Of a DNA stretch of 64,000 nt, positions 12,289 through 54,996 are shown in pieces (position 1 is the stretch's first letter; every line of letters starts with the position of its first letter). Location of the stretch: assembly GCF_020251205.1 (NCBI RefSeq), contig NZ_JAIWYX010000002.1:1-64000 (forward strand). The letters are read 5' to 3'. The notes below the pieces were generated by a model, which saw only the letters and a program-made list of their open reading frames with translations, was not told where the DNA came from and did not search any database. The DNA comes from Arthrobacter sp. M4 (lineage in GTDB: Bacteria; Actinomycetota; Actinomycetes; Actinomycetales; Micrococcaceae). The position numbers were made by a program, and so were the translations under genes.

Positions 12289-12411
12289 TCTCCCGATTGT
12301 GCCGCCCTCCGTGGAGGGCCCGGCACGTTCCGACGAGGATTGAAAAACCCGGAGCAAGGCTGCTGGCATTCAGAGCGGGTCATGATAAGCGGCGCATCGA
12401 TCAGGGTCTGA

Positions 12412-14439: not shown

Positions 14440-14568
14440 TTCCGTGCCCGGTCTTCTCGGAAGAAGGACAGGATGCAGTGCTTGAATACGTCCCAGGCGA
14501 GGCAGCGTTGTCCGATGATTGGTCGCTAACGAACGCGGCTACACTTCCGATATGAGGATGGCAGTCGC

Positions 14569-15330: not shown

Positions 15331-15354
15331 CCTCGCTGGGTCATCCGCCGATGC

Positions 15355-16446: not shown

Positions 16447-16449
16447 TGG

Positions 16450-32493: not shown

Positions 32494-33030
32494 ATGACGA
32501 TCCAGACTCTGGACAAGACCGGCAGCGCGACCGAGCACGAAGCCCGGGTGGAGGCTGCCACTGCAGTCCCCGTCGAGAAGGCCCCGGCCAAACCGAAGGC
32601 CGGGCGTGGCCCTTCGAAGCTGGCCGGCGCGCTGCGCCGCCTGGCCCCCGGGAAGGGCACCGGCGGATCGCCGGTGCTGATCTGGGCGGTGTTCTTCCGC
32701 TCGGTCGTGCTCATCGCCGACTACGTGCTGGCCTCGATGACTGCGATGGTCGTGATCCCGATGCTCGGCGCGTGGCTGCACCGGCAGTCGGGCGCAGCAA
32801 GCGGCGACCTGACCATGGCCGGAACCGTCGCAATGTGGATCGCCCCGCTGCTGTTTGTGGTCCTGTTGCTGGCCGCCGCGGAGATCGCCGCGATGCGCGG
32901 GATGTGGCGCTGGTCCACCCGCCGGATCCAGGCTGTGCGCGACGCCCGCACCCCGGCGCTGGCCCCGGCCACCGCCGCCCCCAGGACCACCCGCCCGAGC
33001 AAGAAGACCAACCGGAAGAGGAGCAACTGA
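32494..33030 (+). CDS. Two-TM hypothetical transfer protein
   Basis: The 178-residue protein has a basic Pro/Lys-rich N-terminus, two TM segments (about residues 64-92, VFFRSVVLIADYVLASMTAMVV; and 108-135, TVAMWIAPLLFVVLLLAAAEIAA), and a basic C-terminal tail ending in KKTNRKRSN. Its stop overlaps the next start by one base. It could be a VirB3-like or accessory channel protein, but no motif decides this. Confidence 0.55.
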   Translation: MTIQTLDKTGSATEHEARVEAATAVPVEKAPAKPKAGRGPSKLAGALRRLAPGKGTGGSPVLIWAVFFRSVVLIADYVLASMTAMVVIPMLGAWLHRQSGAASGDLTMAGTVAMWIAPLLFVVLLLAAAEIAAMRGMWRWSTRRIQAVRDARTPALAPATAAPRTTRPSKKTNRKRSN

Positions 33031-34046
33031 TGCGCACTGCTGGACTGATGATGAATGACGTGTGGGCCGACCGGGCCCTGCGGGAGCGTGGCGTGCAGGC
33101 GCACCGCTACGACGGCCTCGATGCCCAGATCGGGGTGCTGGTCGACTCTGTCGAGCTCAAGCACCGCGGCAAGGAGGAGAACTACCGACCCTACCTGCAC
33201 GTCGTGGGCGAGCTGCGCTCGATCACTCCTGCCGAGCCGCTGCCGTACGGGATCACCCAGGTGACCTACTCGCACGGCCAGGGCGAGAAGGTCGACGCCT
33301 TCTACGAGTTCGACGACGAGCAGCTGGTCGCACTGGCGGCCAAGGGCTACTTCAGCCCTTCGTTTACCGTGCCCGACCAGCTCACGGGGATCGAGTGGGA
33401 GCTGCCCGCCAGGGTGGATGCCCTCGTGCTCACCCCGTCCGGGGACCAGGCCGATGCTCCCGTGGTCTTCATGAACGTGCACCGCATCGCCGATCTCGAG
33501 ATCGACCTGGCCTCCACCGAGTACGACCTGGCGGCCTACTTCACTGACCGCTCCAAGGATGGTCATGGTCCGGTCGAGTCCGTCGTCGACCAGCGTGGCC
33601 TGCGGGCCCGCTCCGACGCGATCAACTCGCTGTTCAGCGAGGACGAGGTCGACTTGGTCGCGCAGGCGGAGAACCTCCAGCGGCCCGAGGAGCAGCAGCC
33701 GGCTGCCGAGGGCGTCACCGCACAGTTGCTGGCCGTCGAGGCCGAGATCACTGCTGAGCGCGAGCGGTATCAGGCTGAGCTGGAGCGCACTGAGGGCACG
33801 CCCGAGCACCTTTACCACCAGCGTGTGGCCCCGGCCCTGCACCTGGACGGACCGGAGGATGCTGCCGTCCCTGCGGACGCGGAGCCGGATGCCAGCGCGA
33901 CCCACGATCTGGACTTTGGTCTGGATGAGGAGGCCACCGGGCAGGAGATGCCCGCGCCGACGCTCGAGGAGCGCAAGCGCGAGGCCTCCCGCCGCGCCGC
34001 CGACCTCGACTTCGGCGAGGAAGACGGGCACGGCCTGGACCACTGA
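33030..34046 (+). CDS. Hypothetical cytoplasmic protein of the transfer operon
   Basis: The 338-residue protein has AGAGGAG upstream of the ATG and is coupled to the previous gene. The N-terminal 200 residues look like a compact alpha/beta domain; the C-terminal 120 residues are acidic with two DLDFG repeats. No nucleotide-binding motif or membrane segment is seen. It directly precedes the relaxase gene, so a relaxosome accessory role is possible. The family is not recognised. Confidence 0.5.
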   Translation: MRTAGLMMNDVWADRALRERGVQAHRYDGLDAQIGVLVDSVELKHRGKEENYRPYLHVVGELRSITPAEPLPYGITQVTYSHGQGEKVDAFYEFDDEQLVALAAKGYFSPSFTVPDQLTGIEWELPARVDALVLTPSGDQADAPVVFMNVHRIADLEIDLASTEYDLAAYFTDRSKDGHGPVESVVDQRGLRARSDAINSLFSEDEVDLVAQAENLQRPEEQQPAAEGVTAQLLAVEAEITAERERYQAELERTEGTPEHLYHQRVAPALHLDGPEDAAVPADAEPDASATHDLDFGLDEEATGQEMPAPTLEERKREASRRAADLDFGEEDGHGLDH

Positions 34047-34140: not shown

Positions 34141-36417
34141 ATGGGCCTGAAGCAGTCAGTGGTCATCGTCAACGAGTTCAGTGTGCCGCTGCCCGGCGGC
34201 AAGGGGTCCCGGGGCGGCACCCCCGGCGACTACGTCACCCGGTACATGGCGCGCGAGCAGGCGACTGAGTCGCTCGCGCCGATCCAGCGGCTGCGCACGG
34301 ACGACTTCATCCTGCGCTACATGGCCCGCGAGAGCGCGGTCGAGCGCGCCGGGACGAGCAGGGTCGAGGCCAAGACAACAATGCGCCAGGCCCAGGGCGA
34401 TGGCGGCGTGGCCTTCGGCTACGGCTCAGTGTCGCTCTCCGACGAGCAGCTGCGGGCTGCGTCCCGGGACATCCAGAAACACTTCGAGAGCGGCAAGACG
34501 GCGCTGAAGACCGTGCTCTCCTTCGATGAGGAATACCTGAAACGGCACCGCATCGTCGGCGAGGACTTTCACTGCGAAGGCCGCGGGGACTACCGCGGCC
34601 ACATCGACCAGATGAAGCTGCGGATGGCGATCATGCACGGGCTGGAGCGGATGAGCTCGGGCACGAGCGGTTTTGACGACCTGCGTTACGTCGGCGTGAT
34701 CCAGGTCGACACCGAGCACGTCCACTGTCACCTGGCGATGGTCGATGCCGGACACGGCCACCTGGCCAAGGACGGCACCCAGCGGGGCAAGCTTTTGGAC
34801 CGGCACAAGTCCCGGTTGCGGCGCGGCGTGGACGCCTGGCTGGACGAGAAGCAGGCCGTCGCGCACCTGTCCAGCGCCGTCGGTTACGAGCGCAGGAACG
34901 TGACGACCTTCATCAAGCGCTGGGCACACGAGCGCATGCGCTCAGAGGCCCTCCCCCAGTTCCTGCTGGCCTGCCTGCCCGCCGACCGCTCGCTGTGGCG
35001 CGCCGGAACCAACGATCTGCGGATGCGCAAAGCCAACCGCCTGGTCTCCGAGCTGGTGGCCGAGCAGCTGGAGCGGCCGGGCTCTCCGCTGCCGGCGGCA
35101 ATGGAGAGGGTCGTCGAGTACGCCAATCAGCGCCGCGAGGCCGAGGGCCTGCCCACCGACGCGTGGCAGCGCCTGGTCGACGCGGGCCGCAACCAGATCA
35201 CCGAGCGGGCGGTCAACGGGGTCTACCAGATGCTGCGCGCCCTGCCCGAGGAGGAGCTGCGGGTGCGTACGCCGATGCTTGAGGTGATGGGTATGGACTA
35301 CGCCGAGATGGCCGCCCTGGCCGCAGAGCGCCAGCAGCAGCACGGCAGCTCGGAGGACGATGTCGTCTCCTTCGGCTTCCGGCTGCGCAGCTATGCCTCC
35401 CGCCTGCAGCATCACAAGTCCAAGGCCAGCGCCTACCGCGACCTGGCCCGGCAATGGGAGCGTGCCGAGAAGGCCGAAGTGGCGGTAGAGGACTCCCGGC
35501 CGCTCTACGACTTCTACCGCTACGAAGAGGACTGGCACCGGCGGGTGATGAGCAAGTACCAGCACTTCCTGCCGTTTGTCGGCGACGCCAGCCAGTGGTA
35601 CGCCCAGCAGCAGGAGGTCGCCGCGTACGGCCAGCGCCTGCTCTCACTGATGGCGCTGCGCCAGGACGCCTCGCTGCAGCGGATGAAGGACGCCGACCAG
35701 GCCGAGGAGATGGGCCGCGAGATCTACGGCCAGCCCGGCGGACGGCACCTGACCGCGGGCAAGGCCGGACGGGCGGTGCTGGACGCGCGCATCGAGACGA
35801 TGAAGCAGGTCTACGACGAACGGCTCCAGGAGCTGCGCACCGACCTGGCCGACTCGGGGCTGGTGCTCGTCGCCGGTCCTGCTGACCAGCGCAGCGCCGT
35901 CGCCGGCGGGGATCCGGAGGTCTCCACCCAGCTGTCGATCGAGACCGGGACGGTGCACCCCTTCGACGAGGTCAAGGCACTGGACCTGCATCACCTGGGC
36001 TACGACTTCGTGGCCGATGTCGAGATCGGCGAGCGGGCCCGGCGGGAGTTCACCGCAGCCGCGGCCGAACGCCGCCGGCTGCTGCTGGCGGCCATGGAGT
36101 ACCTCGACCAGTCGGGCCAGTCCGAGGCGATCGCCGACCTCCCGGTCGACGACGTCGCCGCGATGACCCGGGTCTCGCGGGAACTGGTTCCGGTGGAGGA
36201 CGGCTCCACGCGGCCGGTTCTGCGTTCGAGGATCGCGGCGCTGCGCGAAGAGCAGGAACAGACGGCCCGGATGCGCCGGTCGAAGGCCTCCTCGCTCGAC
36301 GCCGGTCTGGTGGTGCGTGTCCAGCAGCGGGTCGACGCCGCGGTGGCTGGTGCCGGTGTCCTCCCCGGCCCCGAGCAGGAGCCGGCAGGACGGTCCGACG
36401 GCATCCAGCATGAGTAG
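34141..36417 (+). CDS. MobP/MobL-like relaxase
   Basis: The 758-residue protein is the likely initiator of DNA transfer: it nicks oriT and stays bound to the 5' end. The metal-binding 3H motif is HVHCH (His193, His195, His197) in IQVDTEHVHCHLAMVDAG. The N-terminus carries GDYVTRYMARE with Tyr31 and Tyr35 as candidate nucleophiles, a pattern of the MobP2/MobL relaxases. The remaining 500 residues are mostly helical without clear primase motifs. Two REQ-like repeats (TRYMAREQ, LRYMARES) occur near the N-terminus. It follows its own terminator and probably has its own promoter. Confidence 0.83.
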   Translation: MGLKQSVVIVNEFSVPLPGGKGSRGGTPGDYVTRYMAREQATESLAPIQRLRTDDFILRYMARESAVERAGTSRVEAKTTMRQAQGDGGVAFGYGSVSLSDEQLRAASRDIQKHFESGKTALKTVLSFDEEYLKRHRIVGEDFHCEGRGDYRGHIDQMKLRMAIMHGLERMSSGTSGFDDLRYVGVIQVDTEHVHCHLAMVDAGHGHLAKDGTQRGKLLDRHKSRLRRGVDAWLDEKQAVAHLSSAVGYERRNVTTFIKRWAHERMRSEALPQFLLACLPADRSLWRAGTNDLRMRKANRLVSELVAEQLERPGSPLPAAMERVVEYANQRREAEGLPTDAWQRLVDAGRNQITERAVNGVYQMLRALPEEELRVRTPMLEVMGMDYAEMAALAAERQQQHGSSEDDVVSFGFRLRSYASRLQHHKSKASAYRDLARQWERAEKAEVAVEDSRPLYDFYRYEEDWHRRVMSKYQHFLPFVGDASQWYAQQQEVAAYGQRLLSLMALRQDASLQRMKDADQAEEMGREIYGQPGGRHLTAGKAGRAVLDARIETMKQVYDERLQELRTDLADSGLVLVAGPADQRSAVAGGDPEVSTQLSIETGTVHPFDEVKALDLHHLGYDFVADVEIGERARREFTAAAAERRRLLLAAMEYLDQSGQSEAIADLPVDDVAAMTRVSRELVPVEDGSTRPVLRSRIAALREEQEQTARMRRSKASSLDAGLVVRVQQRVDAAVAGAGVLPGPEQEPAGRSDGIQHE

Positions 36418-36484: not shown

Positions 36485-36576
36485 GTTCGGCAGGCACTTC
36501 GGGGCTTTGCTCGGACGACGTGAATGATCAAGGCCGTTCTGCCGAGTGGCGGACGGAACGACGAAAGGACGAGATC

Positions 36577-37116
36577 ATGGCACTTCTCAAGGGCAAGGGC
36601 GCAATGACCGGGGTCAACCTCATCGCCAAGGTCTATGACAACGGCGCGACCAAGGACGGCAAGTCGCACTACGCCGACATCCAGGTCGACGCCCGCGACT
36701 CGCGCGGACCGGAGCAGAGCAACCTGCACCTGAAGTCCGAGCGCGTGAAGGGCCCGGACGGCAAGGAGCGCTTCGCCAACACCGCCCCCTACTCGGTGGG
36801 CCAGCTGGAGGAGATCGTCAAGGCCGCGGGCCCGAATACGGAGCCGCTGCTCAACAAGGACGGCGAGAAGGTCGGCACCGTCTACGGCTTCAAGGGCAAC
36901 GTGATGCCGGCCTCGCGCGGCACCGGTCTGGTGGTCAACACCAAGTCCGTGGAGGCCAGCGACTTCAAGGTCGACGCCAAGACCCTGGACAACCAGTTCG
37001 CCTCCATGAAGGCGGCCAAGGAGGCCCAGTCGGCTGCCAAGCAGAGCCAGGCCGGTCCGGAGCAGACCGCCCAGGCCGAGCAGGTCGTCGAGGCCGAGGC
37101 CCCCGCGGTCGGCTGA
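36577..37116 (+). CDS. Hypothetical protein, possibly single-stranded-DNA-related
   Basis: The 179-residue protein starts at ATG 36,577 with AAAGGAC upstream. Strand-rich residues 1-125 contain GVNLIAKVYDNGATKDGKSHYADIQ-like segments and end in VMPASRGTGLVVNTKS; a helical Ala/Gln/Glu tail follows. Size, beta-rich N-terminus and acidic tail recall single-strand-binding proteins, but no SSB signature is visible, so this stays a hint. It has its own promoter region and its own strong terminator, suggesting high independent expression. Confidence 0.5.
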   Translation: MALLKGKGAMTGVNLIAKVYDNGATKDGKSHYADIQVDARDSRGPEQSNLHLKSERVKGPDGKERFANTAPYSVGQLEEIVKAAGPNTEPLLNKDGEKVGTVYGFKGNVMPASRGTGLVVNTKSVEASDFKVDAKTLDNQFASMKAAKEAQSAAKQSQAGPEQTAQAEQVVEAEAPAVG

Positions 37117-38296: not shown

Positions 38297-38324
38297 CAGC
38301 ACCCCTACGGAGTGAATGGCCAGG

Positions 38325-38352
38325 AGGCCCCCGGATACGAGTCCGGGGGCCT
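38325..38352 (+). terminator. Terminator before the AAA ATPase gene
   Basis: AGGCCCCCGGA (38,325-38,335) pairs with TCCGGGGGCCT (38,342-38,352) around a 6-nt loop, followed by TTCG. Confidence 0.85.
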
Positions 38353-38375
38353 TTCGCTGTCCTATCACAGTCGAG

Positions 38376-38397
38376 CCGAATGGTGTCATGATAGACT
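38376..38397 (+). promoter_or_regulatory. Promoter region with CCGAATGG and TAGACT
   Basis: CCGAATGG (reverse of CCATTCGG) is followed after 8 bases by TAGACT (38,392-38,397), and then by TTTCGACTGATCTATC. The leader to ATG 38,450 is about 45 nt. Confidence 0.5.
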
Positions 38398-38449
38398 TTC
38401 GACTGATCTATCAGATGAATTCAAGTCTTGGCGAGAGGTCTTCCACGGC

Positions 38450-40216
38450 ATGTTCCATGAAGTGCACCTGAATGAGGGCTATCCGCTCCTGTCGAAGCTG
38501 TCGGACCCGCTCAAGAGGGCCGAGCGCGAGATCGTCGGCCGCGAGCACGAGAAGCTCCAGCTGCTGGCCTCGATGAGCAGGCCGGAGCTGTGCAACGCCC
38601 TGCTCCTGGCCGAGGCAGGTACGGGTAAGACCGCTCTCGTCCAGGCCACGATGGCCGCTGACGCCGAGCGGCTCTATCTCGAGGTCGATCCGTCCCGGAT
38701 GATCTCCGAGGCCGGCGACTCGGACCGCATGGCCGCCATGCTCAAGGGCTTCTTCGACGAGGCCGAGCACTTCGTGGCGGACGAGAAGCAGGAGCTGGTC
38801 CTGTTCATCGACGAGTTCCACCAGATCATCCAGCTTTCCGACGCTGCGGTTGAGGCGATCAAGCCGGTGCTGGCGGCCTCCGGGGCACGCGGCATCCGAA
38901 TCATCGCCGCGACGACCTATGACGAGTTCCACAAGCACATTGCGCCGAATCAGCCGCTGGTTGAACGACTGCAGCGCATCAACCTGACGCCGCCGGACCA
39001 GGAAACGACGATCCGGATTCTGCAGGGCATGGCCGAGCACTACGACGTCGCCGACCAGTTCTACGACGACCACATCTATCGGCAGATCTATGAGTACACC
39101 GAGCGCTACATGCCGGCGAGCTCGCAGCCGCGCAAGTCGATCCTGGTGCTGGACAGCATGGTTGGCTGGCACCGCCTCACCAAGCGGGCGCTGGACCGCG
39201 ATCTGCTCTCGGACGTGCTCCAGGAGTCTCTGGGCGTCAACGTTGCCTTCAAGGTCGACGGCGCGAAGATCAAGGAGCAGCTGGACTCGAAGGTGTTCAG
39301 CCAGGACCTGGCCACGCGTGCGGTCGCGCGCCGGCTGCAGCTGTCGGTCGCGGACCTGAACGACAAGGGCCGGCCGGAGGCCTCGCTGCTGTTCACGGGG
39401 TCGACCGGCGTGGGTAAGACCGAGCTTGCCAAGCAGCTGGCACGGCTGCTCTTCGGTGACGACCAGCGCCACCTGATCCGCTTCGACATGTCCGAGTACG
39501 CCCAGGACTCCTCGATGGACCTGTTCCGCTCCGAGCTGACGAAGCGGGTCTGGGATCTCTCGCACGCCGTACTGCTGTTCGACGAGGTCGAGAAGGCCTC
39601 GGCGATGGTCACCCGCCTGCTGCTGCAGGTGCTCGACGACGGCCGGCTCTCCGACGACAACAACCGTGAGGTCAGCTTCCTGAACACCTACATCGTCATG
39701 ACGACGAACGCAGGCTCGGAGATTTACAAGACCATCGCGCAGTACGCGGCCGACGACACGGGCTCGGGCGAGCAGCTACTGAAGTACGACAAGCTCATCC
39801 GCCGCTCGATCACCGAGACCTCGGCGGATAACCGCTTCCCGCCCGAGCTGCTGGGCCGTATCGACGCCATCGTCCCGTTCCAGCCGCTCTCTGAGGACAC
39901 GCAGCGCAAGATCGTGCGCAACAAGCTGCGCCACATGGTGCAGGAGGTCCTCATCAAGCACAACGTGCGGGTGGACATCGACCAGAGGGTCCTGCAGTAC
40001 CTCATCGACGACAAGGGCGACACCGACTCCAATGCCGGCGGTGCCCGTGGCGCGGTGGCGAAGATGACCGACGAGGTCACCACCGGAGTGGCGACGTTCA
40101 TCAACGAGCATCCGTCTGAGCGGCGGATCCGGATCGACGTTGTCGGCGAGCTGGCGAGCGACCACAAGGACATGCTCACCTCCGATGCGTGCATCGAGGT
40201 GAGCGCCGTGCGCTGA
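38450..40216 (+). CDS. Two-domain Clp/Hsp100-like AAA+ ATPase
   Basis: The 588-residue protein has D1 with Walker A AEAGTGKT (residues 54-61) and Walker B LVLFIDEFHQI, and D2 with Walker A GSTGVGKT (317-324), Walker B AVLLFDEVEKA and the sensor-2/arginine part ELLGRIDAIVPFQPLSEDTQRKI. This is the ClpA/ClpB core without the usual N-terminal domain or ClpB middle domain; normal ClpB has about 850 residues. No ClpP-binding loop was identified. It could unfold relaxase or other transfer substrates, or replace a VirB11/VirB4-like motor; both are inference. It has its own promoter region. Confidence 0.8.
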   Translation: MFHEVHLNEGYPLLSKLSDPLKRAEREIVGREHEKLQLLASMSRPELCNALLLAEAGTGKTALVQATMAADAERLYLEVDPSRMISEAGDSDRMAAMLKGFFDEAEHFVADEKQELVLFIDEFHQIIQLSDAAVEAIKPVLAASGARGIRIIAATTYDEFHKHIAPNQPLVERLQRINLTPPDQETTIRILQGMAEHYDVADQFYDDHIYRQIYEYTERYMPASSQPRKSILVLDSMVGWHRLTKRALDRDLLSDVLQESLGVNVAFKVDGAKIKEQLDSKVFSQDLATRAVARRLQLSVADLNDKGRPEASLLFTGSTGVGKTELAKQLARLLFGDDQRHLIRFDMSEYAQDSSMDLFRSELTKRVWDLSHAVLLFDEVEKASAMVTRLLLQVLDDGRLSDDNNREVSFLNTYIVMTTNAGSEIYKTIAQYAADDTGSGEQLLKYDKLIRRSITETSADNRFPPELLGRIDAIVPFQPLSEDTQRKIVRNKLRHMVQEVLIKHNVRVDIDQRVLQYLIDDKGDTDSNAGGARGAVAKMTDEVTTGVATFINEHPSERRIRIDVVGELASDHKDMLTSDACIEVSAVR

Positions 40217-40348: not shown

Positions 40349-42418
40349 ATGGGCATTCTGGGCACGGCTGCGGGAAGCCGGAACAAGGATCGGAAGAAGA
40401 AGCCTGACGAGCTGCTGTCGTCCGTGGTCAGGGAGACGGCGATCCCCGCAGCAGTCGAACTGCTGCGGTCGAACGCGAAGTTCGTCTTCCCCAGCGGCAC
40501 GGCGTGGGTCATGCTCGTGCTGGCCGCCGAGTCCATCGGCGGGCTGAGCAAGCGGCACGGCCGCGACGAGGCGAAGGGCTCGCTCATCGAGCTCATTGAC
40601 TCCGACCAGATCAAGACCGTCGCCACGGCAGAGATGCTGGGCGAAGAGGTCTTCGGCATCATCCCCAACACGGAGACGCTTGCGCGCATGGAGGAGTACT
40701 CGCTCCTGGCTGGCGCGGAGTACTCCTGGGCCGTCGTCTGGCAGAAGCCCAGCGGCGAGCTGCTGGTGGACCTGGTCGCCGAGGCCACGTTCAAGCAGGC
40801 CCAGGAGGTCGCTTCCGGCACGCTGAGCCTCGAGGAGGCTGTCGGAGCGCAGGCCTGGCGCGAGCACAGCGGCGTCACCACCGACGAGCCCGGGACCCTT
40901 CCCGTAGCGGACGCGGACGCTGTTGCTGCCGTGGACACCGCCGACGAGGGTGACCCGATCTTCGACTCGATCCCCGGCGGGGACGAGGGTACCGGTGACG
41001 AGCCGGTCTTCGACGCTGCGGGCGATGAGCCCGTGTTCGACGACGAAGCCGTCGACTTCGGAGACGAGGACGCGGCCCCGGTTGCGGTGGAGCCGGAGCC
41101 CGGCTTCGACGGCACGGCCGGCTTCGAGGAGTTCGACGAGGAGTCCGGTCCTGTGACCGCCGACGATACGGCGTACTCCCCGGCCGAGGAGGAAGCCGTC
41201 CTGCTGGAGAACCAGGAGCAGGTGCGCGAGGTCATCGCCCGCCGTTTCCTCTCCGAGGACCTGGACCTCGACGTGCGCCTGGACGAGTTCAATGCGACCT
41301 TCGCCATCGGCGCGCCGGTCGTGCAGATCGAGGTGCCGCAGGGTGCGACCGAATGGCTCGGCGACCAGGTCGCCCAGCTCAACCGGCAGGCCAACGCCGA
41401 CCTTGCCCAGCTGCGGTGGGCGCACGAGGACGAACTGCGCACGCTGTACGTGAACCTCATGTCGGCCCACGTCGAGCAGGTCATCCGTGACGTGGCCACC
41501 GACCGCGAGGGCTCGCGCTACAAGGCACTCAAGGACGGCACCGAGGCGGCGCACCGCGAGCGGGAGTCCGAGAAGGAACAGCGGATCCGCACCCGCAAGG
41601 CCGAGATCGTCCAGGACTACGAGGCCCAGGCGAAGAAGCTCGCCGAGCAGGCCGCCCTTCAGGCGGAGATCCAGTACAAGGAGCGCAACCGCTCCCGCAT
41701 GGAGCGCGAGCAGGCCGACGCCGTCGCCGAGATCGAGCGGGTGCTCGAGAACTCCTACTCGCACGACCGCCAGGAGATCCTGCGCGTGCGCCGCTCCGAC
41801 GCCGCCCTGAAGATGCAGGTCGGCACTACGCGGATCTTCGAGGTCCTGGCCGAGAAGCAGAAGGCCTACCTCGAGGCCGAGGAGCAGCGTCTGGGGCAGT
41901 GGAAGGCCGAGATCCAGCGGATCGTCGACGACAACCGCAAGGCGGACATCGCCCAGGCCGAGGCTCTGGCAGAGCACCAGCGCACCACCGACGAGATCGG
42001 CGTCCTGCGTCGCGAGCAGGAGGCGCTGCTGGAGTCGATCCGCAACGAGCACGCCGACCGCATCCGCCGGATGGAGGACGAGCTCGACCGCAACCGCAAG
42101 GACGCGATCACCCAGATGCAGGCCCGCGAGACGGAATGGCAGCACAGCCTGTCCCTCGAGAAGGAGAAGACCGACTCGGCCACGCAGCGCAACACGGACC
42201 TGCTGCAGCAGATGGAGGTTGTCGAGGACTCGGTCAAGCGCCGTTACGAGGCGCGGCTGGAGGAGATGGCTGCGGACAAGGAGTCCTACGCCAGCGAGCT
42301 GGCAAGGGCTTCGGAGATCCAGAGCCGCTACAACAAGATGCTCATCGCCCTGATCGTCGCGCTGCCCGTGCTCGGCGGCCTCGCCGGCTTCATCGGCGGG
42401 GCAGCCATGGGCGGCTGA
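40349..42418 (+). CDS. Long coiled-coil, tail-anchored membrane protein
   Basis: The 689-residue protein has an N-terminal alpha/beta domain of about 180 residues, an acidic linker with EPVFD/DEAVDFGDEDA-like repeats (180-300), a long charged coiled coil (about 390-665) and one C-terminal hydrophobic segment (MLIALIVALPVLGGLAGFIGGAAMG). The topology implies a cytoplasmic protein anchored by its tail. It sits between the AAA+ ATPase and the coupling protein, so a scaffold for the transfer machinery is plausible. Family not recognised. Confidence 0.6.
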   Translation: MGILGTAAGSRNKDRKKKPDELLSSVVRETAIPAAVELLRSNAKFVFPSGTAWVMLVLAAESIGGLSKRHGRDEAKGSLIELIDSDQIKTVATAEMLGEEVFGIIPNTETLARMEEYSLLAGAEYSWAVVWQKPSGELLVDLVAEATFKQAQEVASGTLSLEEAVGAQAWREHSGVTTDEPGTLPVADADAVAAVDTADEGDPIFDSIPGGDEGTGDEPVFDAAGDEPVFDDEAVDFGDEDAAPVAVEPEPGFDGTAGFEEFDEESGPVTADDTAYSPAEEEAVLLENQEQVREVIARRFLSEDLDLDVRLDEFNATFAIGAPVVQIEVPQGATEWLGDQVAQLNRQANADLAQLRWAHEDELRTLYVNLMSAHVEQVIRDVATDREGSRYKALKDGTEAAHRERESEKEQRIRTRKAEIVQDYEAQAKKLAEQAALQAEIQYKERNRSRMEREQADAVAEIERVLENSYSHDRQEILRVRRSDAALKMQVGTTRIFEVLAEKQKAYLEAEEQRLGQWKAEIQRIVDDNRKADIAQAEALAEHQRTTDEIGVLRREQEALLESIRNEHADRIRRMEDELDRNRKDAITQMQARETEWQHSLSLEKEKTDSATQRNTDLLQQMEVVEDSVKRRYEARLEEMAADKESYASELARASEIQSRYNKMLIALIVALPVLGGLAGFIGGAAMGG

Positions 42419-46638: not shown

Positions 46639-46661
46639 TGCCGGCGGGTCTATTCGCTCCG

Positions 46662-46697
46662 TGCCGGGACAGTCGATGCAATTCGACTGTCCCGGCA
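46662..46697 (+). terminator. Terminator after the coupling protein gene
   Basis: A 15-bp perfect stem (TGCCGGGACAGTCGA with TCGACTGTCCCGGCA) has a TGCAAT loop and is followed by TTCGTCTTTTC. Confidence 0.9.
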
Positions 46698-46718
46698 TTC
46701 GTCTTTTCGCTCGTTTCT

Positions 46719-46758
46719 GACTCGTCTATCGCTTCCATTCGAATCGTCGGGGTATGAT
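46719..46758 (+). promoter_or_regulatory. Probable promoter of the RNA-polymerase-like gene
   Basis: GACTCGT (46,719-46,725) and CCATTCGA (46,735-46,742) are followed after 10 bases by TATGAT (46,753-46,758), a good -10 hexamer. The leader to ATG 46,805 is about 40 nt and contains AGGAGG. The gene lies directly after a strong terminator, so it is transcribed separately. Confidence 0.6.
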
Positions 46759-46804
46759 CTATACATAGTTATGTCCCCGAGCGTCCACAGGAGGCTGAGT
46801 AGCA

Positions 46805-49800
46805 ATGAAGAAGGCACACGGACTGAGGCGGTACTTCTACGAGTATGTCTTCTACAAGGCAGTCGCGCAGGCCAGGGAACAGAGCGGGGAGATTATTCCC
46901 ATCTCCCAGGCGAAGGCCATCCGCGGACGGGTCGACCAGATCCTCGGCCAGCGCGGAACCGCCCTGGCTGATCCCGGACTCGGCGTCACCGCGTGTCTGA
47001 CTGCGATCGACACGGCCTTCTCCGAGCGCGTCCCGGACTACGAGCCGCAGTTCGGCGACCACTCCCCTGCCAACGAGCGCTACCAGACGCTGCAGCGTGA
47101 GTTCACCCGTGCCACGGGTGTCGGAGCGGAGATTGACCCGCGTTCGGCGCGGCTGCCGATCAGCCCTTACGACCCGGCCTGGTCCGAGCGTGCGACGGTG
47201 AAGCGCGCAGGTACCGAGCTGCTGTACATTCCCGACGAGACGATCGTGAAGAACGCCGGCGGCGAGGTGGAGTCCTTGTCTGAGCCGCGCCGCGGGAACA
47301 TGACGCTCTGGCGGCTCGACGAGGACGGTAAGCCGTACGAGGCCGGCCGCGCCATGACCAACGACGACGCCGCAGGCCTCACGGCGCTCATGGACAAGAT
47401 GAGCCGCCAGGAGTACGACCAGGTCCGCGAGTGGGTCATCGACGGCGGACGCGACCCGCAGACCGGCCGCGTTGACCGCAACCGTTTTATGTCCCAGCGG
47501 GCGGTGGCGCGCTCGGCGGCGCTGCTCGAGGAGCTGAAGTCCCAGGGCGTGGCCTACGAGGTCCTGCGCGACCGTGAGCCCGGGCAGATCAAGGCCCGGA
47601 TCTCCGGGACCGGCATGGAGATCCGTCTCACTGACACGCGCCAGGAGGAGTACGCCGGGGCGCGCATCTATGACAACGGAACGGTGCTGCGCTACAGCAC
47701 CAATCACCGGGTGCCCGGCGGCATGGCCGTGCCCGCCCCGACTTCCGAGGACGCCGTGCGGCTGTTGCGTTTCGCCCAAGGCCTGCCCATCGAACGCGAG
47801 GATCTTCCCGGCACGGTGGTCGGCGTCGTCGGCTCCAGCCACCCCGAGCATGGCCGCGGCCGCTCCCTCATCGACGTGCCGGACAGCTATCACGTCGACC
47901 GCGAGAGCATGTTCGTCGTCGCGGACTATGTCGTCCCCGGTGAGAGCACCCCGCGCCCCGGGTCCAAGGTCATGCTGCGCCGGGATGCCAAGAACCGCTC
48001 CCTGCCGACCTTCTTCGTGGATGCAGAGCCGGCCGAGGCCTACGGTCGCGAGGCCGTGGACACCGCGCGGGAGAACCTGCGCGCCGCCCTGGGCGTCGAG
48101 GAGCTGATTCTGCGCGCGGAGTCTGAGCTGCAGCGCACCGAGGGCGCGCTCGACGAGATCGAGCCCCCGGAGTATGCCTCTGACCCCGAGGTCGCGGCGA
48201 TCCAGCGCTCTTACTGGGACGTGCTCACCGGAGCGCGCAGCGAGCTGCTGCGTCCGGGCGCGACCGAGGAGATGTACCAGGAGCGCCTGGAGGAGATCGG
48301 CGAGCTGCAGGCCGGTGAGCTTCCGGACCTGGGCAATCTCGTCTATGGTGGCACGGCCGCCGACAAGGTCCGTGCGCATGCTGATGACGTTCCGTTCGAG
48401 CTGGTCGGCACCTGGGATGCCGAGCCGCACCTGATCGACGGCGAGTGGCTCGACCAGCGCTTCGATCCCGCCCGCGTCGCCAAGTACATGACCAGCCCGA
48501 CCGGCCAGTGGTCGAACCTGGACAACCTCGCCTCGGCACTGCGCCGCTGCGGGGTGCCTCCCACCGAGCTCATGGGTACCAGCTTCCAGGCGACCCGCTT
48601 CAAGGACCGGATCGTCTCCTTCCACGCTGCCACCGCCGCCCCCATCGCCGAGCATCCCTCGGAGTTCATGCGTCGGATCGGTCAGACCGTCCGGGAGAGC
48701 ATCGAGCGCAACGCCGCGACGCCGGGTGAGATCCTGGTTGACGCACAGGGCGTCATCAGCTGGACCGCCGAAAAGCTGCGTCGTGACGGCAAGGCCACGC
48801 CGGTCTCCGGTGAGATCGGCCAGGTCTTCGATGTCGGCAGCCATGGGGAGATTGTCACGCGCTTCGCCAGTGGCGAGAACGCGCTGATCGTCCCCGGCTA
48901 CGAGGCGCGGATCAAGGCCCAGACCCCGGGCGAGGCCCCCAAGTCGGTCGAGGAGCGCACGGTGCTGCGCGGCTACGAACAGCTGATGCACGAGCGCATC
49001 CAGTACCAGCTTGCCGGTGACCTCGTCTCCGGCCGCAGCCGGACCGGCGAGCCGGCCTCGCTGAACGCGGTGTACTCGCAGCTCTACGGCACCAAGCACC
49101 CGGTTGACTTCATCGAACGGGCCACGACATATGAGGTCGACCCTGCCACTGGCAAGGCCACCGCACGACTGGACGAGTGGACGGCCTCGATCCTCGAGAC
49201 CGAGGCCAAGCGCGTGCGCTACTCCAACGAGATCAAGCAGGGCTCGACGATCTACGCCGAGTACCGCGCCGAACGCGATCGCACCGACCCGGCCGACGAC
49301 AACGTCTTCGACGCCTGGCGGCTCACCGGTGGACGGAACATGACGGTGCTCACGGGAACCGACCGTAACCATGTGACGGCTCCCGGCGGCTTCTTCGATC
49401 CGGTGATGACCGGCGGCGCGACCAACCAGGGCATCGTGCGCTACCTCACTGAGGACGCCGCCGTGCGCCCCGATGGCACGATTGAGCCGGGCGACCCGGA
49501 GACCGTGACCGGCTCCCGCGCTCCGCTGATGAGCCGGCCGGAGCTGGAGACGCTGCGCTATGACCCGTTCGACCGCCAGCAGATGACGGCCTCGACGATC
49601 ATGCAGTCTTCCGAGGTGACGAAGCCGACCGGCACCGCTCTGATGACCTTCGGCGGCTGGACGGCCGACGACCCGATCGTGGTGTCGACGGAGTTCTCCG
49701 CGCGGCACCGCATCCGCGGGGCCGGTGGCCAGCTGCGCGACCTCGTCGTGGGCGACAAGATCAGCGATCTGCACGGCAACAAGGGTGTCGTCTCTCTGGT

Positions 49801-52366
49801 GGTCGACCGCCACGTGGACCCGGACGAGGCACGTGCCCAGGGCCTGGAGCAGGAGGTGGCCTGGTTCAGGGAGAACCCGGGCATCGACGTGGTGATGAGC
49901 CCGTTCTCGCTGATCTCCCGCCGCAACGCCGGATCGGCGCGCGAACTGATGGGCGGTGCCGTGGGCGACATCCGTCGCCCGGCCGTCCAGGGCCCCGAGG
50001 CCGGGCCGGTCGACGGAGGGTTGGGCGAGATGCGGTTCGTGGTCACCCACATGGCTGTCGACGAGAAGACCAAGATTTACGACGACGAACAGGTGCGCGC
50101 CGGCAAGGGGCGCAAGGCCTCCTCGCAGCTGGCCTGGGCGCTGCAGTCCCAGGACTGCCCGGCGATCATGCGCGAGTTCTACGGCCACAACTCCGGTGCC
50201 GAGTCGAACCTGCGCGAGTATCTGCTGGTGGCGGGACTGGACATGGAGGCCGACGGCACCCTGCGCGTCGTGGGCCAGGCCGAGAGTGTCGACGAGCGGC
50301 CCGAGCGCCGCCTGATCCCGATGCCGGAACTGATGCGCACGCAGCCGCGCAGCGAGGGCGCGACGCCGGGGCTGAACACCACGGCCATGCGCAAGTCCTT
50401 CGGCGACCTGATCGGCGACCGCGGCGGCGACATGGAAATCCCCTTTCCGCTGACCTACCCGACGGGTCAGCTGACCGAGACGGTCAGCGCGACTTCGTGG
50501 AAGCTGCCGGTGCTCTCTTCGCATCTGCGCAGCGGCCAGGAGTTCGACGACGGCACGTCCGTCACGCACGACTACACGCGCAGCTACCAGGACGTCTTCG
50601 TCGAAGCCTGCCGCTACCGGTACATGGCTGAGCAGCTGGACGACCACGGCCTGTCGCCGGACAAGCGCGCCGAGGTGCGCCGGGGCATGAGCGAGTCTGT
50701 CTCGCGGGCCCAGCGTGCCTTCGAGGCGATCACCACGGACGTGCAGAACCGCGTGCTGACCGGCAAGAACAACATCTTCAAGACCGGGCTGATGAGCTCG
50801 CGCCTGTCGGACTCGGCCACGATGGTCTGGACCGCCGACCCTCGGCTGGACATCGATCAGATCGCTCTGAGCTCGGTCAAGGCCGAGCAGCTGGGCCTGG
50901 CCGAAGGCGATCACGCGTTGGTCTGGCGCGACCCGGTCCTGCGCGACGCCGGCGTGCGCTACATGCGCGTGGCGATCGACGACCGGCTCACCGGCGCGGC
51001 GATCAACCCGGTGATGGACCAGTGCTTCGACGGCGACTTCGACGGTGACGCGGTCGCCGTCGTGAGGCTGCACAGCGAAGCCGCCAAGGCCGAGGCGATG
51101 GCCAGGCTTTCGGTCGGAGCGAACCTCCTGGACACCGGCGTGGTGAAGGCCGACGGCTCGCACCCGCTGGCCATGCAGGTCTCGCTTGACACCCAGGTGG
51201 CGCTGTCCAAGAGCCCGGAGCTGGCGGAGAGCCTTGAGAGTGCCGTCAAGGAGGCGAACCGCCTGCGGTTCGTCAGCGATCCGCACGAGGTTGCCGCCGG
51301 CCATGAGGTCCTCGTCGAGGAGCTCAGCGATCTCTATCGCTCGGCACAGCGCGGCGAGTTCGGCTCGGCGCTGACCTTCAGCAGCCGCGAGGCGCACCTG
51401 CAGAGCGTGCGCGAAGTCTGCGTCGAGACCGGGGCCAAGGGCAGCGAGAAGAAGCTCGGGGACTACGCCCGCAATCTCGGTGACGAGCAGGGCACGCCGG
51501 GCATCACGCAGGAGGACCAGGAGGCCTCGATGTTCGCCACGGCGATCAAGGCCCACGGTACGGGACTGGGTGGCTCGTTCTCTCAGCGTGCGGTGCGCGC
51601 CCTGCGCGGCGCTGACCTGAAGGCGGTGCTTGAGGTGACCTATCCGGTGACCCAGTCGATCCTGCAGGCCAAGCACGACGCTGCGGAGGCCCGGCACAAG
51701 TACGAGATGCTGCAGGGTCCCGGGCGTGATCTGTGGCGCGGCCGCAAGCTTGAGCACACCGGCCCCGGCCAGTGGCGTCCCGAGTTTGCCGACGGCGAGG
51801 CGGTCCAGGCCACGGCCGAGGAGTGGGAGGCCCAGTTCGTCGAGTTCTACGAGGCCAAGGACGGGTTCAACGTTTCGGTCAACCCGGACTGCGTCGCCCG
51901 TGTGGCCCGCGCGCTTGAGGACCCGAAGTCGGGCCTGTTGCGCAACCTCGAGGAGGACCCTTCCCTGGCGGGCACGGTGATGGACCGTATGGCCTACGGC
52001 GGCGACTTCGAGGCGCTGGTGCAGGCCGCGAAGAACCGCGAGAGCGTCTTCGACGGCGAGAAGAACGAGCAGTTCGCCTCAGCGGGCACCCGCCGTGCCC
52101 GGGCCGCGGCGGCGCGCGAGCTCGACGCGTTCGCGGCGCACGGCCTCGACGGGCTGGACGGGCTGGACTCCGCGGAGGCCGCGGTGGATGCCTCGGTCCT
52201 CAAGCGTGACGTGCTCGCGCAGACCGGGGACGGGGCCGCCAGGGCGCGCGGTGCCAGCCGGCGCTCGGCACACGCCGTCGGCGTGGGCGGCCGTCGCCCG
52301 GCCTGGACGCCGAGCTACGAGACCGGGCAGCAGCAGAGTGACGACGACTATGGACTGGGAGGCTGA
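46805..52366 (+). CDS. Single-chain RNA polymerase-like protein (fused beta and beta-prime catalytic barrels)
   Basis: The 1,853-residue protein carries signatures of both large RNA polymerase subunits in order. Beta-like: FDRQQMTASTIMQSS (922-936, compare ANRQLMGSNMQRQAV of the rifampicin region), GGWTADDPIVVS (950-961, compare GYNFEDSILVS), GDKISDLHGNKGVVS (983-997; Lys985 and Lys993 match the catalytic-site lysines), and DVVMSPFSLISRRN (1028-1041, compare DIVLNPLGVPSRMN). Beta-prime-like: TGKNNIFKTGLMSSRL (1319-1334), then DGDFDGDAVAV with Asp1411, Asp1413, Asp1415 matching NADFDGD (Mg2+ site), GTGLGGSFSQRAVRAL (1585-1600, bridge-helix-like) and VTQSILQAKH (1615-1624, trigger-loop-like, His1624). 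The first 900 residues are unassigned. No sigma or alpha homologue is visible. AGGAGG lies 10 bases upstream. Activity is inferred, not shown. Confidence 0.82.
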   Translation: MKKAHGLRRYFYEYVFYKAVAQAREQSGEIIPISQAKAIRGRVDQILGQRGTALADPGLGVTACLTAIDTAFSERVPDYEPQFGDHSPANERYQTLQREFTRATGVGAEIDPRSARLPISPYDPAWSERATVKRAGTELLYIPDETIVKNAGGEVESLSEPRRGNMTLWRLDEDGKPYEAGRAMTNDDAAGLTALMDKMSRQEYDQVREWVIDGGRDPQTGRVDRNRFMSQRAVARSAALLEELKSQGVAYEVLRDREPGQIKARISGTGMEIRLTDTRQEEYAGARIYDNGTVLRYSTNHRVPGGMAVPAPTSEDAVRLLRFAQGLPIEREDLPGTVVGVVGSSHPEHGRGRSLIDVPDSYHVDRESMFVVADYVVPGESTPRPGSKVMLRRDAKNRSLPTFFVDAEPAEAYGREAVDTARENLRAALGVEELILRAESELQRTEGALDEIEPPEYASDPEVAAIQRSYWDVLTGARSELLRPGATEEMYQERLEEIGELQAGELPDLGNLVYGGTAADKVRAHADDVPFELVGTWDAEPHLIDGEWLDQRFDPARVAKYMTSPTGQWSNLDNLASALRRCGVPPTELMGTSFQATRFKDRIVSFHAATAAPIAEHPSEFMRRIGQTVRESIERNAATPGEILVDAQGVISWTAEKLRRDGKATPVSGEIGQVFDVGSHGEIVTRFASGENALIVPGYEARIKAQTPGEAPKSVEERTVLRGYEQLMHERIQYQLAGDLVSGRSRTGEPASLNAVYSQLYGTKHPVDFIERATTYEVDPATGKATARLDEWTASILETEAKRVRYSNEIKQGSTIYAEYRAERDRTDPADDNVFDAWRLTGGRNMTVLTGTDRNHVTAPGGFFDPVMTGGATNQGIVRYLTEDAAVRPDGTIEPGDPETVTGSRAPLMSRPELETLRYDPFDRQQMTASTIMQSSEVTKPTGTALMTFGGWTADDPIVVSTEFSARHRIRGAGGQLRDLVVGDKISDLHGNKGVVSLVVDRHVDPDEARAQGLEQEVAWFRENPGIDVVMSPFSLISRRNAGSARELMGGAVGDIRRPAVQGPEAGPVDGGLGEMRFVVTHMAVDEKTKIYDDEQVRAGKGRKASSQLAWALQSQDCPAIMREFYGHNSGAESNLREYLLVAGLDMEADGTLRVVGQAESVDERPERRLIPMPELMRTQPRSEGATPGLNTTAMRKSFGDLIGDRGGDMEIPFPLTYPTGQLTETVSATSWKLPVLSSHLRSGQEFDDGTSVTHDYTRSYQDVFVEACRYRYMAEQLDDHGLSPDKRAEVRRGMSESVSRAQRAFEAITTDVQNRVLTGKNNIFKTGLMSSRLSDSATMVWTADPRLDIDQIALSSVKAEQLGLAEGDHALVWRDPVLRDAGVRYMRVAIDDRLTGAAINPVMDQCFDGDFDGDAVAVVRLHSEAAKAEAMARLSVGANLLDTGVVKADGSHPLAMQVSLDTQVALSKSPELAESLESAVKEANRLRFVSDPHEVAAGHEVLVEELSDLYRSAQRGEFGSALTFSSREAHLQSVREVCVETGAKGSEKKLGDYARNLGDEQGTPGITQEDQEASMFATAIKAHGTGLGGSFSQRAVRALRGADLKAVLEVTYPVTQSILQAKHDAAEARHKYEMLQGPGRDLWRGRKLEHTGPGQWRPEFADGEAVQATAEEWEAQFVEFYEAKDGFNVSVNPDCVARVARALEDPKSGLLRNLEEDPSLAGTVMDRMAYGGDFEALVQAAKNRESVFDGEKNEQFASAGTRRARAAAARELDAFAAHGLDGLDGLDSAEAAVDASVLKRDVLAQTGDGAARARGASRRSAHAVGVGGRRPAWTPSYETGQQQSDDDYGLGG

Positions 52367-52367
52367 C

Positions 52368-54122
52368 ATGACACAGGACACGGAGCAGGAAATGGGTCCG
52401 GGCGGCAGGGGCCGAGGGCGCAAGGCACTGCCTGTCGACCCGTTGGGCCACGTCCATCCTGTGTACGGGATGGACGGCGGGGAGGAGGACATCATCGACG
52501 CGGAGATTGTCGACGAGCCGGACACGCAGGCCGGACACGACACCTCACGAGGGCAGCGCGAGCGGCTGCGCGACCGTGCCCGCGGCTTCTTCGGGGCCAC
52601 GACGCGGGAGCGGACCGAGGAGCGGGAGCGCCAGCGTGCACGCGACCAGCAGCGCGCTGCGGCCGACGATGACGGCCTTGACGACCGGGAGCGGCTGCTG
52701 AAGCTCCGGGCGGAGACGCGGCTGGCGGGCGAGGCGTACATGCAGACGCTGCGCGATTCGAAGCTGCTCGTGCCCGGCTTCAACGACGGGGAGCGCACGA
52801 AGGAGTTCGACGCGATGCACGCGGTCTACATGCAGATGATGATGCAGGGCTGCCTGCGTCCGCTCACCCGCGGCGTGAACCCGAACTCGGTCATCCAGGC
52901 CGCCGGCATGATGATGGCAATGCGGATGCTCGCTCCTGACTTCAGGAAGGAGATGGACTCCTACCTGCAGCCGTTCAAGGACAAGGTCCAGGACCGGATC
53001 GACGCGAAGACCCGGCACATCGGCGAGAGGGCCGAGCGCCAGGCGGCCCTGGTCGGAGATCTGTTCGGGGGCGCGCCGGAGGCGCAGGAGGCCACCGGTG
53101 ACGACGGCGGGAAGCAGGTCGGGAAGTCGGGCGGGCGGTGGGGTACCAGCAGGGACGACTTCCTTTCCCGGCGCTGGCGTACCCGTCTGGAGGACCTGGA
53201 GCGCCGCGAGCGGGGCAACCGTGAGCTGTTTACTCCCGAGTCGGCGGCCATGACCGAGGTCGCGCTCATGGAGAACGCCTTCTGGAAGATGCGTGACCCC
53301 GAGCAGGACGCGAAGCAGATCAACGCCAGCTACAAGGCCCTGCGCAAGCGCCTGCGCCAGCAGATGGAGGACGACGGGCTCGACCGTGCCGAGGTGGTCA
53401 AGCGCGCCCGGACGATCATCGGCGAGCGGATGGAGTCCGAGCCGGAGCTGCGCCTGATGTTCAACGGCGTCGCGCACGGCCGCATCGTCAAGGCCCCGCC
53501 GCACGAGGCCCGCCTCGCGGGCACCGACAGGGTACGCGAGGTCTGGACCGGGGAGTTCGACGACCACCTGGGCCGGCGGATCCCCGACGAGGGCATGTTC
53601 ACGCTGCGCCTGCCGATGGAGCCGGACGAGCACCAGGTGCAGCTGGCGGAAACCATGAAGGCGGCGATGCTGGACGGCGTCCAGCGTGGCGACGGACAGG
53701 CCCTCGGCGGCAGTGTCATGGGCTACATGATCGGTTTCGCGGCCAAGAAGCAGGGCCTGGACACCCGCGGGCTGCCCGAGGACCTCCAGCAGCGCCTCGA
53801 CCAGTCCGAGAGCATGCTCGCAAGCATGGAGATCGATGGTCTTTCGGACGAGGAGCAGCAGCGTGTCTACTCGAACGCCTACGTGGACGCCATCGAGGAG
53901 CTGAACAAGGAGGACCCGGATTTTGAGCACGAGCTCAAGCTGGCCCTCGGCGAGGACTGGCAGGACACGATGCGGGCCGCGGTCGACGATCCTGCTACTT
54001 TCCTGGCGGCGCAGCGCACGCGGCCCCAGCCCTTCCGACAGGGGCCCGGCCCCTCGGCCCGGCCGGGGCCGGAGGGTCAGTGGAGCCGCGACCGCGGAGC
54101 CGAGGACTACCAGCCGGCATAA
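52368..54122 (+). CDS. Hypothetical protein following the RNA-polymerase-like gene
   Basis: The 584-residue protein starts 1 base after the stop of the polymerase-like gene; GGGAGG lies 5-6 bases before ATG 52,368 (inside the upstream stop region), so the two are tightly coupled. It is charged and mainly helical, with a disordered acidic N-terminus (DEPDTQAGHD), an Arg-rich stretch (RERTEERERQRARDQQ) and a Met-rich helix (YMQMMMQGCLRP). No membrane segment or HTH is evident. The coupling makes it a candidate partner or accessory factor of the polymerase; nothing in its sequence resembles sigma. Confidence 0.6.
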   Translation: MTQDTEQEMGPGGRGRGRKALPVDPLGHVHPVYGMDGGEEDIIDAEIVDEPDTQAGHDTSRGQRERLRDRARGFFGATTRERTEERERQRARDQQRAAADDDGLDDRERLLKLRAETRLAGEAYMQTLRDSKLLVPGFNDGERTKEFDAMHAVYMQMMMQGCLRPLTRGVNPNSVIQAAGMMMAMRMLAPDFRKEMDSYLQPFKDKVQDRIDAKTRHIGERAERQAALVGDLFGGAPEAQEATGDDGGKQVGKSGGRWGTSRDDFLSRRWRTRLEDLERRERGNRELFTPESAAMTEVALMENAFWKMRDPEQDAKQINASYKALRKRLRQQMEDDGLDRAEVVKRARTIIGERMESEPELRLMFNGVAHGRIVKAPPHEARLAGTDRVREVWTGEFDDHLGRRIPDEGMFTLRLPMEPDEHQVQLAETMKAAMLDGVQRGDGQALGGSVMGYMIGFAAKKQGLDTRGLPEDLQQRLDQSESMLASMEIDGLSDEEQQRVYSNAYVDAIEELNKEDPDFEHELKLALGEDWQDTMRAAVDDPATFLAAQRTRPQPFRQGPGPSARPGPEGQWSRDRGAEDYQPA

Positions 54123-54152: not shown

Positions 54153-54518
54153 ATGAGCGACGACCAGCAGGTAGAGCAGCAGGAGCGGTACGGTTCCCGG
54201 CTTGCCCAGATGTTCGGGTACGTCACGCCCGAGGACCGCGGTCGCTGGGAGCAGCAGCGTGCGCAGAACAAGAAGAACGTCAATGCAACCAAGCAGGGTG
54301 CGAAGTCCTCGGTGAGCTCGATGATGGAGTTCGGCGACAAGAACATCAACGCCAAGCTCAACGCGGCCCACCGGATCGCCGACCAGCAGCGGTTCGATGA
54401 GTCCCACGACAAGATCGTCAGCACACGGCGCGATCCGAAGACCCGGTCGATTATTGAGTCAGTTGACTACGAGTACAAGGACGACCGCCAGTCCATTGAT
54501 CCGGATTTCGAGCTTTAG
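54153..54518 (+). CDS. Small hypothetical protein of the polymerase operon
   Basis: The 121-residue protein has AAGGAGA before the ATG and begins 30 bases after the preceding stop. It is polar and helical (RGRWEQQRAQNKKNVNATKQ) with an acidic C-terminus ending in DYEYKDDRQSIDPDFEL. It is probably the third gene of the operon 46,805-54,518. No family recognised. Confidence 0.5.
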   Translation: MSDDQQVEQQERYGSRLAQMFGYVTPEDRGRWEQQRAQNKKNVNATKQGAKSSVSSMMEFGDKNINAKLNAAHRIADQQRFDESHDKIVSTRRDPKTRSIIESVDYEYKDDRQSIDPDFEL

Positions 54519-54568: not shown

Positions 54569-54627
54569 ATAAACTGGTTTTCAAGCAGGAAGCGGACGAC
54601 AAGGGACGATAGGACAAAGGTGTGGGC

Positions 54628-54996
54628 ATGAAGACGACGGTTCATCCGCGGATCAGCAAACGCGGATTCATCTCGAAGGTCGCCGGCCGGAGTGGACAGC
54701 CGATAAGGGTGGTGAGTGAGGTGTACGAGTCGCTCATCGCGGAGCTCACCGACGCCGTGCGCCGTGGAGACACCGTCGTGCTTACCGGCTTTGGCCGCTT
54801 CGCCCGACAGACGCACAAAGGCCACAAGGTCCGGTTCGGCAAGAAGGACGTTGATGACTACTCGGTGCTGAAGTTCTCCGCGTCACGCAGCATCAATCGA
54901 CGGCTCGATCCGGACGCTGAAGGTGGCCCGGAGACCTTGAGGCTGATCGATGAATTTGACGAGGCTGAGGAGGTCCTTGCCCGGGTGGCGGGATAG
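54628..54996 (+). CDS. HU/IHF-like DNA-binding protein
   Basis: The 122-residue protein shows the HU fold: KRGFISKVAGRSGQP, then VYESLIAELTDAVRRGDTVVLTGFGRFARQTHKGHKVRFGKK and DYSVLKFSASRSINRR, where GDTVxLxGFGxF and KFxAS are the family signatures. HU proteins have about 90 residues; here an acidic 30-residue tail (PETLRLIDEFDEAEEVLARV) is added. It should bend or coat element DNA and might regulate the intergenic motifs. GTG 54,622 is a possible alternative start 2 codons upstream. It ends the backbone block before a strong terminator. Confidence 0.85.
   Translation: MKTTVHPRISKRGFISKVAGRSGQPIRVVSEVYESLIAELTDAVRRGDTVVLTGFGRFARQTHKGHKVRFGKKDVDDYSVLKFSASRSINRRLDPDAEGGPETLRLIDEFDEAEEVLARVAG

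Follow-up and report, generated by a model that had tools for sequence, protein, structure and literature searches.

A fused-core RNA polymerase, likely active, is encoded in a conserved conjugation module of Arthrobacter sp. M4, and we predict, at about an even chance, that it is delivered to the recipient cell by the secretion system of its own element. The gene lies in the 64,000-nucleotide stretch of DNA analysed here (the window; Table 1). Judged by its gene content the element is conjugative, with a relaxase, a coupling protein and an integrase-like protein all encoded in one block.

Table 1. Coordinates of the polymerase gene, its motifs and the surrounding module genes in the window
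Feature	Position	Strand	Remarks
Tyrosine integrase-like protein, left part of the element	22708..23880	+	PF00589, E 8.4e-6, just under cut-off
Phage-type lysozyme domain protein of the transfer cluster	26711..29002	+	PF18013, E 1.7e-36
g32772, upstream of MobL	32772..34046	+	C-terminal motif across relatives; start codon uncertain
MobL relaxase	34141..36417	+	PF18555, E 1e-100
g36520	36520..37116	+	C-terminal motif across relatives
Double AAA+ ATPase resembling ClpA/ClpB	38312..40216	+	ClpA E 1.2e-74, below equivalog cut-off
g40349, conserved module gene, no family match	40349..42418	+	
VirD4/TraG-type coupling protein, 1,364 aa	42544..46638	+	
Terminator-like hairpin between VirD4 and polymerase genes	46661..46698	+	16-pair stem
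TATGATCTAT, conserved promoter-like block	46753..46762	+	52 bases upstream of polymerase start
Single-chain beta/beta-prime RNA polymerase gene	46805..52366	+	1,853 aa; ORF, Pfam, hhalign, modelled core and PDB match
N-terminal region, residues 1-660	46805..48784	+	Confidently modelled; no notable PDB match
Beta-barrel lysine motif GDK...HGNKG, residues 983-994	49751..49786	+	
SRRN, residues 1038-1041, beta-type SRxN	49916..49927	+	
Beta-prime/Rpb1-like part, residues 1148-1745	50246..52039	+	
Catalytic aspartates GDFDGD, residues 1410-1415	51032..51049	+	
Trigger-loop-like TQxxLxxKH, residues 1616-1624	51650..51676	+	
C-terminal motif DDDYGLGG, residues 1846-1853	52340..52363	+	Proposed secretion signal (putative function)
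g52368	52368..54122	+	Starts one base past polymerase stop; C-terminal motif
g54153	54153..54518	+	C-terminal motif, ends DPDFEL
HU-like DNA-binding protein	54622..54996	+	

Polymerase gene and protein

The beta and beta-prime parts are not separate chains, both being encoded by one open frame. PF00562 (beta domain 6) was matched by residues 976-1056 (E 1.3e-5, above the cut-off) and PF00623 (beta-prime domain 2) by residues 1365-1433 (E 2.7e-5, just under the cut-off) in the Pfam scan, and NCBIfam weakly matched polymerase subunits of archaea and bacteria in these two places. RpoB and RpoC of the host both align with the polymerase family profile in hhalign, the RpoC match being clear over 210 columns, and the modelled core matches the fold of the beta-prime/Rpb1 catalytic part in the comparison with PDB structures. 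The model is confident as one chain; fold matches hardly cover residues 560-1147. Because an ordinary rpoB is present elsewhere in the host genome, the window polymerase is a second, separate enzyme.

The lysines K985 and K993, aligned with host RpoB, and the aspartates D1411, D1413 and D1415 of the DxDxD triad, aligned with NADFDGD of host RpoC, are kept in 64 of 64 family sequences. The earlier note had read an RNA polymerase with two barrels in one chain, encoded by a conjugative element, from the lysine motif, SRRN, GDFDGD and a trigger-loop-like segment with His1624; Pfam, the hhalign comparison with RpoB and RpoC and the invariant residues bear out this reading, and alignment places each of these motifs. 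It had given the N-terminal half no assignment, and this half still has none: the Pfam and NCBIfam scans returned no family, and no chain of note was found among the 994 PDB chains compared, an absence that is no proof. Three relatives of ~1,940-2,002 aa (P0259, P0260, and P0272) have a best segment spanning only 63-64% of the query, perhaps reflecting an insertion in the core.

The gap from D956 to K985, where the flap would lie, is 18-32 residues long (median 28) in the 64 sequences vs 150 in host RpoB. Judging from this alignment, the polymerase family is without the flap, i.e., without the dock for sigma region 4 in the beta barrel. The trigger loop and beta-prime core are complete in the alignment, and the sequence describes a complete, flapless, single-chain polymerase core. 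We consider it highly improbable that this protein is an inactive or RNA-templated relative (an RNA-dependent polymerase, a regulator, or a decoy of the host polymerase), as might be proposed from the two-barrel superfamily having RNA-dependent members in which the flap is likewise missing (PMC7824862), since the catalytic residues are invariant and the closest sequence match is to a DNA-dependent beta-prime subunit.

A primase-like enzyme, which would make short RNA primers rather than messenger RNA on single-stranded element DNA in the donor or the recipient, is a quite unlikely reading. The missing flap suggests that an enzyme lacking a sigma partner might initiate on single strands, and primases are carried or transferred by other families of conjugative elements (PMC5512222; PMC8406263), but the complete trigger loop and beta-prime core exceed the needs of a primer-maker, and an annotated P4-type primase is also present on pGKT2, a plasmid carrying a relative of the polymerase. 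This reading overlaps with delivery to the recipient, and sequence cannot separate the two.

Comparison with known polymerases

YonO of SPbeta, with which the polymerase had been compared in the earlier note, also has both barrels in a single chain and is encoded by a mobile element (PMC5467207), but it is 839 aa long vs 1,853, and the window family retains the beta-prime lid, rudder and switch-2 region by alignment. The likeness in architecture holds, and kinship by sequence was not detected with the single YonO sequence used: set alone against the 64-row polymerase profile, it gave an hhalign probability of 0.2%, and BLASTP gave an E of 0.62. We predict that the polymerase works like YonO but, with its clear match to host RpoC, is nearer to cellular RNA polymerases in sequence. 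With the cellular enzymes it has in common both catalytic cores, the trigger-loop Q and H, and the beta-prime fold, whereas it differs from them in being one chain, in having no flap, and in its unrelated N-terminal half.

NCgl1702-like two-barrel RNA polymerases of mobile elements are described as being without the SBHM flap in the beta barrel (PMC7824862). The flap is missing in the window family too, a likeness drawn from description only, and these enzymes may be the window polymerase family. The available part of the same source does not mention conjugation modules or a C-terminal signal for them (PMC7824862). In the literature searched, no RNA polymerase of a conjugation module was described, apart from one phrase on NCGL1702-like enzymes, and nothing was found linking such a polymerase to conjugation modules or a secretion signal.

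Virion RNA polymerases (N4 vRNAP and the tail-fused vRNAP of P23-45) resemble the window polymerase in the proposed delivery alongside invading DNA, which for the latter would go by conjugation. N4 vRNAP differs in being of the T7 type and not two-barrel (PMC5512222); no T7-type palm domain was found in the window polymerase, for which the Pfam scan gave just the two multisubunit families. Among the best viral fold matches of the polymerase model is a single-chain match, A0A8S5SD80 of BFVD (a fragment labelled as a viral "minor tail protein"), which aligns over 1,348 columns with a TM of 0.34 and is possibly another tail-fused polymerase.

Conservation of the conjugation module

The scan of representative genomes gave 44 loci, belonging to Actinomycetota and Firmicutes, plus one metagenome bin labelled Muribaculaceae. 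A VirD4-type gene lies upstream of the polymerase gene on the same strand at 37 of them, and the other module genes recur as well (ATPase at 33, g40349 at 33, the downstream g52368 at 32, g54153 at 30, and HU at 29). Of the seven loci without VirD4, five are on contigs that are short or whose end is close by; at the other two (L041 and L043) no VirD4 match was found in ~10 kb upstream of the polymerase. The earlier note had recognized a conjugative element, as we do, and had drawn it too narrowly: MobL, the Clp-like ATPase, VirD4 and the downstream genes form part of the same conserved block. By this gene conservation, the polymerase belongs to a conserved conjugation module. The Pfam scan of 30 ORFs of the window gave no VirB4-type ATPase family, and none in region 22708-56196 in particular, despite the presence of MobL and VirD4; a diverged member may be present.

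MobL was found in 29 of the 30 carrier genomes searched vs 1 of 14 control genomes, and it lies with the polymerase on contigs of equal length in all 13 genomes whose MobL region was retrieved. The one control genome with MobL is that of Corynebacterium glutamicum, which we take to be the species behind the locus name NCgl1702. The pGKT2 plasmid of Gordonia has its polymerase relative in the same gene order as the window, and a review that cites Jung et al. (2011) reports that this plasmid passes from strain to strain (PMC5640721). Conjugative plasmids of the pLS20 (MOBL) type share the MobL relaxase family (PMC5313138), but the phrase "RNA polymerase" is absent from the text of PMC5313138 as available, and the 13 plasmid records that match the polymerase do not include pLS20.

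Occurrence of the polymerase family

Homologue searches at E 0.001 or better from three starting points gave 437, 88, and 239 proteins; the best 120 are listed for the first and the last of these sets, and the weakest matches in the 88-protein set are ordinary or fused multisubunit enzymes. The 13 matching records of annotated plasmids come from Staphylococcus (5), Lactococcus (5), Streptomyces (1), Rhodococcus (1), and Gordonia (1). The polymerase is rare and patchy, being present in 1 of 394 genomes of the class and 3 of 345 of the family, with the window's own genome counted.

A phage origin was considered and rejected, the window core having matched only 4 INPHARED records through weak, beta-like similarity over 10-11% of the query, and the Lactococcus core having no INPHARED match at 1e-5. 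The window protein found no match in IMG/VR, and a profile search found 7 loci there, of which only one is a full relative (L112, on an 86.6 kb contig classed as viral). This contig carries VirD4 and then the polymerase, which suggests that a conjugative element was filed among the viruses.

A shared C-terminal motif

The polymerase ends are otherwise variable, yet throughout the two phyla the chains close with patterns of which GFELEM, DDYEMEL, GGPELG, DDYQL, and YGMGY are examples. A five-residue PWM, which reads [DE][GDE][FMLYP][EGQ][LMF], was learned from 167 non-redundant polymerase tails, with windows just upstream in the same proteins as controls. These 167 were reduced from a set of 288 after the exclusion of P0114, P0121-P0124, P0188, P0192, P0193, P0196, P0197-P0212, and chains of <1,300 aa. 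In five-fold cross-validation, 145 of 167 tails scored above the 95th percentile of the controls (p 1.9e-76).

This PWM was then applied to the tails of 16 module families, the integrase and g55039 being omitted (<4 non-redundant members). Families were assigned by profile search with at least one error (a protein of L006 placed under g29137 is a g30907 relative). Four families remain significant after correction for 16 tests: g52368 (12/19, p 2.7e-7), g54153 (8/10, p 4.9e-6), g32772 (7/18, p 1.4e-5), and g36520 (5/13, p 7.1e-4). Tails of MobL, the passenger to be expected, pass weakly (10/25, p 0.0068, or ~0.11 when corrected for 16 families) and are dissimilar among the close relatives of the window itself. 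No enrichment was seen for VirD4 (0/14), the ATPase (0/17), g40349 (1/16), HU (1/18), the lysozyme (0/13), or six further families. As far as these tails indicate, the C-terminal motif is common to the polymerase and other module proteins, not to the channel parts.

On single plasmids, the polymerase tail ranks first and the MobL relaxase second of 46 scored on the Staphylococcus plasmid SAP020A, and the polymerase tail is tied second of 26 on pGS01. Tails from the transfer region of pGKT2 pass in 8 of 25 cases (the polymerase counted in) vs 13 of 127 elsewhere (p 0.0085), and the latter figure means that ~10% of ordinary pGKT2 C-termini pass, the motif being short. The result is less clear on the Lactococcus and Rhodococcus plasmids; of 34 tails on the Lactococcus plasmid, 7 pass, with the best score belonging to an unrelated flippase. 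In the window, two proteins outside the element also pass.

Upstream regions and a role in the donor

The main rival to delivery into the recipient, which we regard as possible but rather unlikely, is that the polymerase acts in the donor as an element-specific enzyme transcribing the long transfer operons, thus replacing the antitermination of other Gram-positive conjugative plasmids. The position of its gene within the transfer block in the same 37 of 44 loci agrees with such a role, as do the specific transcription of the late genes of its prophage by YonO (PMC5467207) and the frequency of antitermination systems in large Gram-positive conjugation operons (PMC8955417). Terminator-like hairpins between module genes (e.g., the one between VirD4 and the polymerase in Table 1) may be added, such sites being overall no more numerous than in shuffles.

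Of 22 anchored upstream regions of the polymerase gene, 20 hold a conserved block, TANNNTCTAT, under an anchor rule that itself favours CTAT (23 loci were entered, and L019 gave no anchor). The block lies 44-54 bases upstream of the polymerase start, often with TTATG ~ten bases on, and carries a host-like TANNNT hexamer. The block was not recognisable by eye upstream of g40349, HU, VirD4, or other genes inspected, and g40349 has instead, also by eye, a host-type TTGCNN-18-TANNNT arrangement. The suggestion in the earlier note that the polymerase transcribes the transfer genes from promoters of its own finds no support here, the upstream block of the polymerase not having been recognised by eye before two other module genes. 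The lack of a module-wide promoter element by eye and the host-type g40349 promoter speak against the donor-side role, which also leaves the C-terminal motif unexplained.

Delivery to the recipient

The shared C-terminal motif fits an enzyme acting in the recipient, as the other role put forward in the earlier note, priming of complementary-strand synthesis after transfer, would require. Delivery of the polymerase would proceed as follows. Its C-terminal motif would be recognised as a signal by the VirD4-type receptor, the module's Clp-like ATPase may unfold this large cargo, and the polymerase would cross with or beside the relaxase-bound strand. In the recipient it would synthesise RNA from the incoming DNA independently of host sigma, and this RNA could serve as early transcripts, second-strand primers, or both. 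Sent with the single strand, the polymerase would allow the entering element to be transcribed or primed at once, whatever the sigma factors of the host.

Its part in conjugation would be analogous to that of injected virion RNA polymerases in phage infection. In its fullest form, which we put forward tentatively as falling just short of an even chance, the proposal is of a conjugative counterpart of the phage virion RNA polymerase that is sigma-independent, carries a C-terminal acidic-hydrophobic tag, is unfolded by the Clp-like ATPase, and is exported through the VirD4 channel, with the tag marking a co-delivered establishment set in two phyla. The SogL primase, SSB and Par proteins cross by conjugation (PMC8406263); SogL, TraC1, SSB, and ParA/B likewise go through the conjugative channel and work on the incoming strand, but these are primases and binding proteins, and an RNA polymerase is not named among them in the available parts of these sources (PMC5512222; PMC8406263).

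Several points count against delivery: the motif is short and occurs in ordinary C-termini too, its presence in MobL is weak, the Lactococcus plasmid and pGS01 give less clear rankings, two window proteins from outside the element pass, and a chain of 1,853 residues would need unfolding and refolding. The promoter-like block with its host-like TANNNT at the polymerase gene would equally be required for a role in the donor, where the motif might alternatively label proteins that assemble together or are to be degraded.

The first RNA on the single strand entering a new cell is an open question in Gram-positive conjugation. Should the polymerase cross together with the DNA, the first steps of the element would be independent of the recipient transcription machinery, which would help to explain spread across distant hosts, the polymerase family spanning Actinomycetota and Firmicutes; polymerase delivery, if true, would be a new way to begin using incoming genes. 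The C-terminal motif offers a sequence handle for other proteins sent across and opens this long-standing question to testing by ordinary gene removals. Even if delivery is wrong, the retention of a polymerase in the transfer block of elements from two phyla adds a new fixed component to the conjugation machine.

Element boundaries and neighbouring genes

No direct repeat of >13 bases was found between the flanks examined and no tRNA gene in the window, and a search of the flanks of 29 relatives gave no decisive boundary. One of the 345 family genomes (G552, loci L102 and L103) has MobL and no polymerase, with the part from the integrase to g36520 kept. It was considered as a working element without polymerase and rejected: the ATPase, g40349, VirD4, and the polymerase were not found within the 40 kb retrieved, and with the ATPase, VirD4, and polymerase all missing we take it for a truncated sibling element. 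Beside the integrase in the window lies a defence-like island (10083-22354, minus strand) with genes for an MmeI-type type IIG restriction-methylase, a DEAD helicase, a GIY-YIG protein, a NucS-like protein (PDC-S11 match), and a GHKL ATPase.
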